From contig QGNQ01000004.1 of NCBI GenBank assembly GCA_003228175.2, positions 56,361 to 120,360 on the forward strand: DNA of 64,000 nucleotides. Direction: 5' to 3'. Shown here piece after piece: positions 43,430 to 50,124 of this stretch. How positions within the stretch are numbered: position 1 is the stretch's first letter; every line of letters begins with the position of its first letter. The DNA is from Chloroflexota bacterium (GTDB lineage Bacteria > Chloroflexota > Dehalococcoidia > Bin125). The translations under genes and the position numbers were made by a program. The notes under the pieces are model-generated. The model saw only the letters and a program-made list of their open reading frames with translations. It did no database searches and had not been told where the DNA came from.

Positions 43430-43688
43430 CGTGCGACTCCTCCATCGCGTCTCGGGAACGCCCAGCGCGATCCCGACCCGTGCGCCGACTGTCGCAGGCC
43501 CAGCCCCCGGGGAGCATCGGGAAAGTGCCTAATCGGGCGGCGTAGGGCCTGTCCTCAAGCCGCGGGCCCGGCGCTCCTGGCCCGCTTCCCTTGCGGCGGC
43601 GTCGCTCGTAGCATGTGCGCGTTTCCCTCTGGGGTGCCCGGTCCCCGAGAGTCGTTTGCCATCCTCATCGTCGTTTGGAGAGAACACA

Positions 43689-44510
43689 ATGCCAACACCG
43701 ATCCGCGCGCACGTCATCGTGGGCGGCTTCCCGCCCGGCCAGCACGGCGGCCACGACATGGACTACGCCCGACTGCGCATCCTGCAGGCGCTGCAAGCGA
43801 ACGAGGACGTGAACGCGACGGTGAGCCCGGACTTCACGGACTGCCAGCGCTACATCCGCGATTGCCAGTTACTGATCACCTACGTCGCCGGCCCCTACGC
43901 CAACGACCCGGAGAACGACGTGATCCGCGATTGGATCGCGGACGGCGGCCGCTGGCTGGCGCTGCACGGCAGCACGGGCGGCAAGGCGGAGCGCCTCAAT
44001 CCGGAGGGCACGAAGCGCCGCATGGCGAAGTTCCCCTACCACGAGACGCTGGGGGGGTTCTTCATGACCCATCCCCCCATCCGCGAGTACCAGGTGGACG
44101 TGCCGGACCGCAACCACGTCCTCACGCACAACTTGCCGGAGTCGTTCCGGATCCAGGATGAGCCTTACATGATCGAGGTTCTGCATCCGGAGACGCGGGT
44201 CCTGCTCTCCACGGCCGAGGTGCCGCCGCCGCCGGCGGCGATGCAGGAGTTGTACGGCGGCGACACCTCACTGCTGCCGGACGGAACGTCGCGCGCGCTG
44301 GGGTTCGTGCGAGAGATCGGCGGGGGCAGCGTGGCGTACATCGCGCCCGGGCACTGCCACAGCCCAACGACCGGCGCCCAGGCGTCGATCGACGATAGTT
44401 TGTTCGTCGACGCCAAGCGCCCGATGCGCTTCAAGGGCCCCTGGAACACGGACGCGTACGAGAAACTGCTGGCGAATGCGATCGCCTGGGGCACCGGCGT
44501 CGAGGGCTGA
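43689..44510 (+). CDS. ThuA-like domain protein (copy 1)
   Basis: IRAHVIVGGFPPGQHGGHDMDYARLRILQAL, WLALHGSTGGKAER, AYIAPGHCH. Confidence 0.82.
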   Translation: MPTPIRAHVIVGGFPPGQHGGHDMDYARLRILQALQANEDVNATVSPDFTDCQRYIRDCQLLITYVAGPYANDPENDVIRDWIADGGRWLALHGSTGGKAERLNPEGTKRRMAKFPYHETLGGFFMTHPPIREYQVDVPDRNHVLTHNLPESFRIQDEPYMIEVLHPETRVLLSTAEVPPPPAAMQELYGGDTSLLPDGTSRALGFVREIGGGSVAYIAPGHCHSPTTGAQASIDDSLFVDAKRPMRFKGPWNTDAYEKLLANAIAWGTGVEG

Positions 44511-44531: not shown

Positions 44532-45356
44532 ATGATCATGGCGACACCGATTCGCGCACACGTCGTAGCGGGGGGCTTCCCGCCCGGACAGCACGCCGGG
44601 CACGACATCGACTACGCGCGCGTACAGCTGCTGGCCGCCCTCCAAGCCAATGAGGACGTGCACGCAACCGTGTCGAGCGACTTCGTCGATTGTGAGCGCT
44701 ACATCCGCGACTGCCAGTTGCTGGTCACCTACGTCTCCGGCCCCTACGCAGACGACCACACGGCGGGCGTGATCAAAGACTGGCTGGCGGACGGGGGGCG
44801 CTGGCTGGCGCTGCACGGCAGCACCGGCGGCAAGGCCGCCCGCGTGCAGGGCAGCACGCGGCGGCGCATGGTGAAGATGCCCTACCACGAAGCGCTGGGC
44901 GGCTTCTTCACGACGCATCCGCCCGTGCAGGAGATCGACGTGCAGGTGCACGACCACAACCACGTGCTGACGCACAACCTGCCGGCCAGCTTCGTGATTC
45001 AGGACGAGCCCTATTGGGTGCAGGTGCTGCATCCGGAGACGCAGGTCCTGCTGACCATGGAGATGCCGCAGAACCCGGACCCGGACTTCGCGATGATCGC
45101 GGACAATGCGGATTCGCTGCTGCCGGATGGCAAGTCGCGGGCGCTCGGTTTCGTCCGGCCCTTGGGCGAGGGCGCCGTAGCCTACATCGCGCCCGGTCAC
45201 TGCCACACGCCGCTGACTAACGGGCAGGCCTATGTGGACGTAAGCGTCTCGCCCGACAAGCAGACGCCGCTGCACTTCCGCGGCCCCTGGAAGACCGAGG
45301 CCTACCAGACGCTGCTGGCCAACGCGGTCGCCTGGGGCACCGGCGTCGAGGGCTAG
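44532..45356 (+). CDS. ThuA-like domain protein (copy 2)
   Basis: IRAHVVAGGFPPGQHAGHDIDYARVQLLAAL, WLALHGSTGGKAAR, AYIAPGHCH. Confidence 0.82.
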   Translation: MIMATPIRAHVVAGGFPPGQHAGHDIDYARVQLLAALQANEDVHATVSSDFVDCERYIRDCQLLVTYVSGPYADDHTAGVIKDWLADGGRWLALHGSTGGKAARVQGSTRRRMVKMPYHEALGGFFTTHPPVQEIDVQVHDHNHVLTHNLPASFVIQDEPYWVQVLHPETQVLLTMEMPQNPDPDFAMIADNADSLLPDGKSRALGFVRPLGEGAVAYIAPGHCHTPLTNGQAYVDVSVSPDKQTPLHFRGPWKTEAYQTLLANAVAWGTGVEG

Positions 45357-47509: not shown

Positions 47510-47782
47510 CTAGCCGCCGCCGCGTTGGAGCTTCTTCATCAGCTCCGGTTCGAACGCCGCGATGATGGACTGGTCCCCGTCGAGGAGGATGTTGAGCTGA
47601 GTCAGCTTCAGCGTCCCGCCAGCCAAGTCCACCCGCTCACTGCTCCAGGAGACGGTGTAACCGTCCCCGGACATGCGAGGCGCGTCGCGATCGTGCGGGT
47701 CGGCTGCCGCGCCCAGCTCCAGCAAGTAGGTGCGCAGCAGCCAGTCCGGCACGCCGCGGATGTTGAGCTCAATGAGGCTCAT
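47510..47782 (-). CDS. Hypothetical 90-aa protein ending in GGG, translationally coupled to MoaD-like gene (possibly the MoaD-related C-terminal/DUF1952-like family)
   Basis: ATGA overlap with 47779..48207; ends ...ELMKKLQRGGG*. Family suggestion is inference. Confidence 0.65.
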   Translation of the reverse strand: MSLIELNIRGVPDWLLRTYLLELGAAADPHDRDAPRMSGDGYTVSWSSERVDLAGGTLKLTQLNILLDGDQSIIAAFEPELMKKLQRGGG

Positions 47783-48207
47783 CGGCCGCCGGCTTTTGCC
47801 ACTCGTGCGCCGGCTCCGCCGGCTCTTGCCACTCCTGCGCTGGCTCCGCCGGCTTCTACCACTCGTACGCCGGCTCCGCCGGCTTTTACCACTCCTGCGC
47901 CGGCTCCGCCGGCTTCTGCGACTCGTGCTCCGGCTCCGCCGGCGACGGGCGGGAAGATATCGACCTCGGCACCGGCCGGGACGGGCGCATCGAGCCCGCC
48001 CAAGTGGCGCACGTCACGCCCGTCGATCATCACGGCGACGTAGGGCCGAATCTCGCCCGCCTCCGACAACAGGCGCCCGGCGAGCGCCGGAAAGCGCGCG
48101 ATCAGGGCGTCGATCAGGGAGCGGACATCGCTCGCCTCGGTATCCGGCAGTTCTACCAGGCGTCCACCCACGATCGGCCGCAGCGTCGCGTAGAGGCGGA
48201 CTTCCAC
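47779..48207 (-). CDS. MoaD/ThiS-type sulfur carrier with C-terminal tandem GG-decapeptide extension
   Basis: MEVRLYATLRPIVGGRLVELPDTEASDVRSLIDALI...PYVAVMIDGRDVRHLGGLDAPVPAGAEVDIFPPVAGG is a complete MoaD-like domain, then 51 extra residues. Confidence 0.85.
   Translation of the reverse strand: MEVRLYATLRPIVGGRLVELPDTEASDVRSLIDALIARFPALAGRLLSEAGEIRPYVAVMIDGRDVRHLGGLDAPVPAGAEVDIFPPVAGGAGARVAEAGGAGAGVVKAGGAGVRVVEAGGASAGVARAGGAGARVAKAGGR
47791..47940 (-). repeat. Five exact-length 30-bp tandem repeats in the MoaD-like gene
   Basis: Consensus (+ strand) ggcttytrccactcstgcgccggctccgcc at 47791, 47821, 47851, 47881, 47911. Confidence 0.95.
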
Positions 48208-48242
48208 CGGGGGCCCAGACCGCGCGCGCCTCGCGATCGCCG

Positions 48243-50048
48243 CTAGCTGATGCTCAGCTCTTGCAGCTTGGCGGCCGGCACCACGCCATCGTCCCAGCCG
48301 CGCGCCTCGTAGTATTCGGCCTTCATCTCATCCAGCTCGCAGACGGAGTTGGCGGCCGCGCCGGTGCCCGGCTCCTTGAGGAAGCGCTCCGGCAGGGAGT
48401 CGTCCTTGCCATCGAAGCCGGCCAGGTTGTTGAAGCGGCGCTCCAGGTTGTAGATGCGCTCGCCCGTCGTCATCACGTCGTCCTCGCTGATCGGGATGCC
48501 CACGATGGCCTCGTACTGCTGGGCGTACTCGGCGGCGCCCTCGGAGAAGGCGGAGAACTTGCAGAGGTCCAGCGAGTCGCTGAAGGCGTGCAGGTCCTGG
48601 AAGATCTTGAGCAGCGGCCCCTTCCCCTCCCAGGCCAGCGGGTCCGTCTTGACCGGGATGCCCAGAATCTCCGAGGCCGGCGTGTAGCCGCGCAGGTGGC
48701 AGGCGCCGCGGTTGCTGGTCGCGTAGCCAATGCCCTCGCCCTTGATGGCGCGGGGGTCGTAAGCGGGGACGGCTTGGCCCTTCACGACCATGGCGATCTC
48801 GGGGTGGCCGAACGCCGCCGCGGCCTTGCCCGTGCCATCACCCAGGATCTCGCCGGGGCCCTGACGCATCGCGACTTGCTCGGCCAGCTCCACCATGCCG
48901 GCGCCATCACCCCAGGCCAAGCCGGGGCCGGAGATGTACTCCTTCTCGGTCGCCTCCATGTACATCGAAAGCACGTTGCCGATCTCGATCGCGTCCATGC
49001 CGTAGTCGTTGCACTGGTCGATCACCTTGGCGATGACGCCCGCGTCGTCGTTGTCGCAGTTCGCGCCCAACGACCAGGCCGGCTCGTACTCGAAAGACTC
49101 CATGCGCAGGCCCTTGTAGGGCCCGTCCTTGATCTCGACTTCTTTCTTGCAGGCCACCGGGCAGGCGTGGCACGTGGGCTCCTCGACCAGGATCGTCTCG
49201 CGGATGGTCTCGCCACTGAGCGCCTCGGCCCGGTCGAACGTCGTCGTCTGGGAGTTGCGCGTGCCCATGCCGCCCAGCGCGTTGACGACGTTGGTCAACA
49301 CGTTGGTGCCGTAGAGGGAGAGGCCGCCGGTCTTGGGGCCGGTGACCTCGCTGTCGAGGATGGTCTTGAGGGCGGTGGCGTGAGCAATCTTCCACTTCTC
49401 GCGGTCGGCCGCCTTGGGCATCGTGCTGCGGTCGCCCTTGACAACGACCGCCTTGAGGTTCTTCATCCCGGCCACGGCGCCGGTGCCACCACGCCCGGCG
49501 GCACGGTCGTTCTCGTTCACGATGGCGGCGAAGAGGACTTGGTTTTCGCCGGCCTGGCCGATCGCCATCACGGAGAGGTCGTCGCCGTGGCGGTCGTTGA
49601 GGATGGAAACGGTCTCGTGGATGCCCTTGCCCCAGAGGTCCTCCGCGGGTCGCAGCTCAATCGCGCCATCGGCGACGTAGGCGTACACGGGTTGCTCCGC
49701 CTTGCCCGTGAAGAGCAGCGCGTCGAAGCCGGCCCAGCGCAGGCGCGCCGCGCTCCAGCCGCCCATGTGGCTGTCGACGACCGTGCCGGTCAGCGGGGAC
49801 TTAGTGACGAACGCCATGCGACCGCTCATGGTGGCTTCGCTGCCGGTTAGGGGACCGTTGACGAGGGCCAGCATGTTGTCCGGACTGCTGGGATCCATCG
49901 TGGGACCGTTGTCGTAGAGGTACTTCACGCCAAGACCGCGCGCGCCGATATAGAGACGCGCGTCGTCCTCATTGATGCCTTCGTAGGCGACGGCGCCACT
50001 GGACAGATCGATCCGCGCGACGTGATTCGCGTAACCACCCAAAGCCAT
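48243..50048 (-). CDS. Aldehyde ferredoxin oxidoreductase (tungsten-type AOR family), second locus
   Basis: HVARIDLSSGAVAYEGI, GPLTGSEATMSGRMAFVTKSPLTGTVVDSHMGG, CHACPVACKKEV; ATG 50048 after ggggga. Confidence 0.93.
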   Translation of the reverse strand: MALGGYANHVARIDLSSGAVAYEGINEDDARLYIGARGLGVKYLYDNGPTMDPSSPDNMLALVNGPLTGSEATMSGRMAFVTKSPLTGTVVDSHMGGWSAARLRWAGFDALLFTGKAEQPVYAYVADGAIELRPAEDLWGKGIHETVSILNDRHGDDLSVMAIGQAGENQVLFAAIVNENDRAAGRGGTGAVAGMKNLKAVVVKGDRSTMPKAADREKWKIAHATALKTILDSEVTGPKTGGLSLYGTNVLTNVVNALGGMGTRNSQTTTFDRAEALSGETIRETILVEEPTCHACPVACKKEVEIKDGPYKGLRMESFEYEPAWSLGANCDNDDAGVIAKVIDQCNDYGMDAIEIGNVLSMYMEATEKEYISGPGLAWGDGAGMVELAEQVAMRQGPGEILGDGTGKAAAAFGHPEIAMVVKGQAVPAYDPRAIKGEGIGYATSNRGACHLRGYTPASEILGIPVKTDPLAWEGKGPLLKIFQDLHAFSDSLDLCKFSAFSEGAAEYAQQYEAIVGIPISEDDVMTTGERIYNLERRFNNLAGFDGKDDSLPERFLKEPGTGAAANSVCELDEMKAEYYEARGWDDGVVPAAKLQELSIS

Positions 50049-50124
50049 CGAGTCCCCCATTCGTGCCGGGCCAGATGCTCCGACCGCGTGCGTGATGATA
50101 CCGCCCAGGACGAATGTGCGGAAC

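Follow-up and report, generated by a model that had tools for sequence, protein, structure and literature searches.

MoaD must offer a free Gly-Gly (GG) to its E1. QbsE, a C-terminally extended carrier, reportedly has extra residues after its GG that are trimmed by a JAMM protease. The archaeal CsSAMP precursors are cut by CsJAMM, and the CsUb precursor is cut precisely after its GG by CsRpn11 (PMC6043591). DRJAMM cleaves the MoaD-MoaE protein of D. radiodurans (PMC8832034), and MoaX is active only after a cut past its GG (PMC4326299). In mycobacteria, MoeZR serves MoaD and CysO alike, and Mec+ is known for hydrolysis of the CysO-cysteine adduct, not for MoaD trimming (PMC3227635). A subset of MoaD proteins linked to aldehyde:ferredoxin oxidoreductase (AOR) was described by Iyer, Burroughs and Aravind in 2006, and molybdopterin for AOR's tungsten cofactor is proposed to come from these proteins (PMC1779556).

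We analyzed a carrier gene of this AOR-linked type in a Chloroflexota MAG (84.7% complete, 76 contigs); the window, that is, the whole stretch of DNA analyzed, is 64,000 nucleotides long. The gene resembles the AOR-linked MoaD/SAMP1 subset (PMC1779556) in having a PPVAGG-ending beta-grasp carrier domain directly adjoining an AOR gene. Members of that family are either fused or stop at the GG or no more than about 10 residues later, whereas this protein continues for 51 residues past the GG, through five 10-aa repeats. Likened by sequence and gene content alone to the JAMM-cut Ubl/SAMP precursors (CsUb-pre, CsSAMP/CsMoaD; PMC6043591), it shares with them residues after the GG and a JAMM protease in the genome, but those precursors each have one short extension (9 aa in CsUb) and no repeated GG. 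It also shares with the fused MoaD-MoaE proteins (MoaX, PMC4326299; D. radiodurans, PMC8832034) an internal GG that needs release for activity, except that what follows here is a repeat predicted to be disordered and not a partner enzyme domain. Finally, the Thermus thermophilus protein of PDB 1V8C combines the same two domains, MoaD and DUF1952, including the RGGG C-terminus, in a single chain, unlike the window, where they are encoded by separate overlapping genes with the repeat tail between them. Our literature search on tandem-repeat tails of MoaD/ThiS proteins returned no relevant title.

The carrier gene and its repeat tail

The features of the locus are listed in Table 1. The 142-aa protein matches ThiS (PF02597) over residues 3-91 (E=5.8e-14, Pfam), which covers the entire beta-grasp domain, and SAMP1 (NCBIfam NF041918) over residues 1-91 (87.6 bits for a cut-off of 60, E=5.9e-25); it also scores 61.2 with TIGR01687 (moaD_arch), whose cut-off is 49.5. 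These matches support its assignment as a MoaD/SAMP1-like sulfur carrier of the ThiS superfamily, and they agree with a preliminary description of the locus that had ended a MoaD-like domain at PPVAGG, residues 90-91. That description had also called the carrier AOR-linked, and a gene with AFOR_N and AFOR_C domains indeed lies directly upstream, about 35 bases away on the same strand. The encoded C-terminus, past the repeats, is GGR and not GG; membership in the family is still allowed, because 14 of 35 family members likewise miss a terminal GG.

Table 1. Features of the AOR-moaD-DUF1952 locus, in window coordinates
Feature	Position	Strand	Basis
Aldehyde:ferredoxin oxidoreductase (AOR family)	48243..50051	minus	Pfam AFOR_C 5.8e-126, AFOR_N 1.3e-72; start codon inferred
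moaD-like (SAMP1/ThiS family) CDS	47779..48207	minus	GTG start 48207, TGA stop 47779, 142 aa
Carrier domain, residues 1-91, PPVAGG end	47935..48207	minus	Pfam ThiS 3-91, dN/dS, pLDDT
In-frame minisatellite tail, five 30-bp units (A-G/S-A/V-R/G-V-A/V-E/K/R-A-G-G) and one Arg codon	47785..47934	minus	TRF, unit alignment
ATGA overlap, moaD stop and DUF1952 gene start	47779..47782	minus	sequence
DUF1952 protein, 90 aa, RGGG end	47510..47782	minus	profile, Pfam of homologues, Foldseek

The tail was detected by TRF as a 30-bp array at 47786-47943 (5.3 copies, 86% matches, score 239), and its five units read AGARVAEAGG, AGAGVVKAGG, AGVRVVEAGG, ASAGVARAGG and AGARVAKAGG. GG occurs at residues 90, 100, 110, 120, 130 and 140, with a single Arg after the last; this register had been reported beforehand and proved exact on recount, and GG at all five tail positions was obtained in 0 of 200,000 tail shuffles. 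The repeats themselves, described earlier as five exact ones, are not identical: units differ pairwise at 3-6 of 30 bases, and the copies vary in 9 of the 30 columns. Since the DNA repeat is 30 bp long, the 10-aa register is automatic and is no separate evidence for protein-level design. Our analysis thus confirms that the tail is an in-frame expansion of a 30-bp DNA repeat, located just past the functional Gly-Gly and before the ATGA overlap. As for its origin, we guess that a duplication spanning an ancestral GCATGAG stop/start (now GCACGAG or GCAGGAG) gave rise to the unit, which would fit the sequence.

This MAG is rich in coding minisatellites. In 460 kb sampled from it, of which 396 kb lie outside the window, 66 of 86 arrays have a period divisible by 3, and the array described here is the second strongest by TRF. 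It resembles the coding minisatellites and VNTRs of high-GC bacteria in its period, its location inside an ORF and its diverged copies; unlike them, it sits exactly at the catalytic C-terminus, and each copy recreates the motif of that terminus. At 842-1126, within a long open frame, the window contains another tandem array, of greater length and complexity, whose 12-66 bp units are based on CGGCAACG. At the level of whole genes, two neighbouring genes of similar sequence on the plus strand (43656-44510 and 44532-45356) share the pattern RAHV..GGFPPGQH.GHD.DYAR and look like the products of a tandem duplication.

Three other readings of the DNA were rejected. A dispersed repeat element was ruled out: GCCGGCGGAGCCGG has no occurrence outside the array in the entire MAG, and the unit pattern is not arrayed in 60 relatives. 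An RNA structure or attenuator was set aside, as the array folds barely better than shuffles (z=-1.95), a slight excess accounted for by its GCCGGC palindromes. Lastly, an antisense ORF of 706 aa (47730-49850, plus strand) overlaps the conserved AOR and MoaD genes on the opposite strand and was judged to be a high-GC artefact.

The two parts of the carrier protein differ in predicted structure. AlphaFold2 gives the carrier domain a pLDDT of about 82-91 across most of its length and the tail one of about 36-43, without secondary structure; the tail is therefore predicted to be disordered. In the pairwise comparison with the orthologue from a genome of the same genus (G001), the carrier domain is under purifying selection (dN 0.178, dS 0.737, dN/dS about 0.24), and so are AOR (dN 0.074, dS 0.454) and the DUF1952 gene (dN 0.205, dS 0.638). 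The tail as a whole is not, with pN 0.149 against pS 0.121 among its units. Its GC3 is 0.49, effectively one sample of ten codons because the units copy one founder, while that of the carrier domain is 0.85 and that of the neighbour genes 0.89-0.91. Within the units, the only change in the AGG-A codons is a single silent one, and all six amino-acid-changing columns fall in the spacers (pN 0.24). The chance of finding at most one of the nine variable columns inside the 12-column AGG-A core is about 0.04-0.05, which makes AGG-A constancy a weak argument for selection on the repeats; moreover, the core is palindromic as DNA (GCCGGC-GGA-GCCGGC), and its constancy may be accounted for by the slippage mechanism itself keeping the palindrome.

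Relatives, family C-termini and the DUF1952 partner

The repeat tail is absent from all relatives among 100 kin, 399 phylum and 394 class genomes, in a collection holding one genome per species. With the full 142-aa query, the sole stop-free match over residues 1-142 in the phylum and class genomes is the window's own gene. Among 61 genomes including its own, the unit pattern (up to 2 mismatches) is arrayed in the window genome only, and in the 60 relatives it gives one single hit, with 2 mismatches. The tail thus appears to be private to one assembly or lineage. This is largely the outcome that the preliminary description had named as speaking against it, namely a repeat in this assembly only and orthologues ending cleanly: the same-genus orthologue (G001; L006/L012) stops as PPVAGGA* and likewise has the ATGA overlap.

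The homologue search suggested at the time for repeat number and 10-aa register yielded no relative with repeats, but it did reveal residues past the GG in other family members. Among 35 distinct AOR-type carriers with an FPPxxGG end, 21 stop exactly at the GG and 11 have 1-10 extra residues; the remaining three are the window array and two fusions that run on for 94 and 433 residues. Laxity after the GG thus appears ordinary among AOR-type carriers, and the window tail is longer than every other non-fused tail in this survey. The longer of the two fusions (L057:1322-2893, minus strand; G005:C5) is an AOR-linked MoaD continuous with 433 residues that include a match to sigma-70 region 4, apparently either a sulfur carrier fused to a DNA-binding-type protein or the product of a lost stop codon.

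Downstream, the moaD-like gene is probably coupled in translation to the 90-aa gene through the ATGA overlap. A -4 overlap (start ATG, GTG, TTG or CTG) is kept at most orthologous moaD/DUF1952 pairs. In the same-genus orthologue (L006:4264-4282), the GG codons GGAGGC provide a Shine-Dalgarno-like GGAGG before the DUF1952 ATG; the match is weaker in the window (47779-47790), because its last GG is encoded by GGCGGC.

Taken alone, the 90-aa sequence falls under the Pfam DUF1952 cut-off (13.4 versus 22 bits). A profile of eight homologues matches residues 96-168 of 1v8c_A (E=9e-10), reaching the final RGGG, and five of the eight homologues have a DUF1952 match at E<=1 in Pfam, the best at 2.6e-6. 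The structure predicted for the 90-aa protein (pLDDT 87.5) has 1V8C as its best Foldseek match (E=8.8e-5). By profile and predicted structure, the coupled protein is a DUF1952 protein, homologous to the C-terminal domain of 1V8C. Its predicted fold is not a beta-grasp and has a long helix at the C-terminus. MoaD and DUF1952 occur in one chain in PDB 1V8C (Thermus), in L013 (G002:C437) and in L070 (G286:C31), the last two being, from their sequences, independent-looking fusions in Chloroflexota.

That the coupled small protein ends in GGG had been noticed before, and its end indeed reads RGGG. RGGG is found in 8/8 aligned DUF1952 homologues, one further pair and the L070 fusion having RAGG instead; it stands at the exact C-terminus in the window, in L006, L007, L008, L013, L017, L029 and L032, and in PDB 1V8C. 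We know of no explanation for this conserved free Gly-Gly-Gly end, which may outrank the repeat tail in interest.

Trimming of the tail and rival readings

In the MAG (G000), five ThiS-domain proteins were found, and 5/5 continue past their GG. Apart from the AOR-linked carrier, one ends AGGAARPPSE (C62), another has SGG followed by 17 residues (C4), and a CysO-like carrier ends AGGATVA and is followed by a CysM-like gene (C46). On the same contig C46, the E1 domain of a MoeZ-like ThiF protein (L054:5118-6221, plus strand) is directly preceded by a ThiS domain that ends AIAGG and forms the N-terminus of the protein; after this gene come the CysO-like carrier, the CysM-like gene, a sulfurtransferase and a JAMM protease. 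The ThiF-type E1 match (G000:C46:14420-15121, E=1.6e-83) places a partner E1 of ThiF/MoeB type in the genome. The protease (L054:8982-9527) matches Prok-JAB (E=1.6e-20) and has an intact HSH...S..D motif, HSHTMTEARPSPTD. A single E1 of the ThiF family and a single Prok-JAB protease were detected in the MAG, both in this CysO/CysM cluster; further E1 or JAMM genes may be absent from the assembly because it is 84.7% complete. MoaC is present and MoaE has no match in this incomplete MAG; as MoaE is present in the same-genus G001, we dropped its lack as a sign of a different role.

Our preferred reading, held with moderate confidence, is that the array is a lineage-private minisatellite tail on an AOR-linked MoaD/SAMP1 carrier, and that the precursor is trimmed by JAMM after Gly91, which is then thiocarboxylated. 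Proteolysis was one of two options offered at the outset, and it gains from both the need to trim a blocked GG for carrier work and the presence of a JAMM protease with an intact motif. The carrier would be synthesized in precursor form and would lose its entire tail when the JAMM protease cuts after the first GG. Gly91 would then be adenylated and thiocarboxylated by the shared MoeZ-type E1, giving sulfur for the pterin cofactor of AOR; an E1 shared between carriers is reasonable here because MoeZR serves both MoaD and CysO. With all residues after the GG discarded, tail length would be nearly free, provided that the frame is kept into the ATGA overlap, and minisatellite expansion there would come at little cost. 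The internal GGs would be by-products of copying a unit that contains the ancestral AGG-A codons; additional cuts may occur at each of them, although a normal carrier end would result from the cut at Gly91 alone. Most likely, the tail is either simply tolerated or clipped off by a protease of the usual kind for carrier trimming, and does not make a new multi-headed carrier. Several points weigh against this reading. The JAMM gene lies apart from the AOR operon and may act on the CysO-type carrier only; Mec+, which belongs to such a cluster in mycobacteria, is known as a hydrolase of the CysO-cysteine adduct, not as a trimmer of MoaD (PMC3227635). Neutrality does not predict an AGG-A core less variable than chance (P about 0.04-0.05), for which the palindrome may account, and a tail of about 50 residues exceeds every other non-fused tail seen.

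It is unlikely, in our view, that the tail stays in place and MoaD is no longer a sulfur carrier, with another carrier (for example, that of C62) serving instead and the gene either drifting or structural together with DUF1952 and AOR. Four further ThiS-domain proteins in the MAG could take over, and fusions with an internal GG exist (G002/L013, G286/L070, PDB 1V8C), but those other carriers also have residues past their GG and so face the same problem. Moreover, the domain and its GG are under purifying selection relative to G001 (dN/dS about 0.24), with PPVAGG intact, a pairwise value that would leave a very recent loss undated.

Also offered at the outset was a carrier with several usable GG ends, in which the repeats would be selected and several ends cut or used, as arms of varied length or reserve sites. 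The six AGG sites at exact 10-aa spacing, and AGG-A codons without amino-acid change next to a spacer pN of 0.24 (P about 0.04-0.05), fit this idea, which we nevertheless find improbable. The array occurs in one assembly only, is not under overall purifying selection, has no predicted structure, and uses codons not adapted to the genome (GC3 0.49); the AGG-A result is borderline, and the core it concerns is palindromic as DNA. In addition, any end beyond Gly91 would be a disordered arm of 10-50 residues, and partner pockets are known to take a short GG tail. A related proposal, to which we give less weight still, is that the tail is functional in that JAMM entry at several equivalent GGs speeds or tunes release, copy number acting as a rheostat of tungsten/molybdenum-cofactor supply to AOR.

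We are more skeptical again of a tail evolving into a MoaD-DUF1952 linker, with frameshifting or read-through at the overlap. Such fusions do exist in L013, L070 and Thermus 1V8C, but their linkers are short (about 6-15 residues) and non-repetitive, and here the tail ends at TGA in a frame different from that of DUF1952, with no obvious slippery site at the overlap on inspection. Least credible of all is an assembly or sequencing artefact, with the array, or the loss of a stop after the first GG, not real in the cell: the source is a MAG, tandem arrays are error-prone and copy number could be miscounted in the assembly, but a collapse, or a frameshift error such as the hidden stop envisaged earlier, is unlikely because the copies differ in 9 of 30 columns, unlike assembler-made duplicates, and the frame is intact over 150 nt and runs cleanly into the conserved ATGA overlap.

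Because its disordered tail holds six GGs, this carrier is a ready natural substrate for studying how JAMM and E1 enzymes choose the right GG, and it lets the strictness of end trimming be probed in Ubl carriers, a class of proteins whose function is believed to require a free GG at the C-terminus. Our survey suggests that extensions after the GG are common among the AOR-linked MoaD proteins of Chloroflexota; trimming in tungsten/molybdenum cofactor synthesis may therefore be more extensive in these bacteria than annotation implies.
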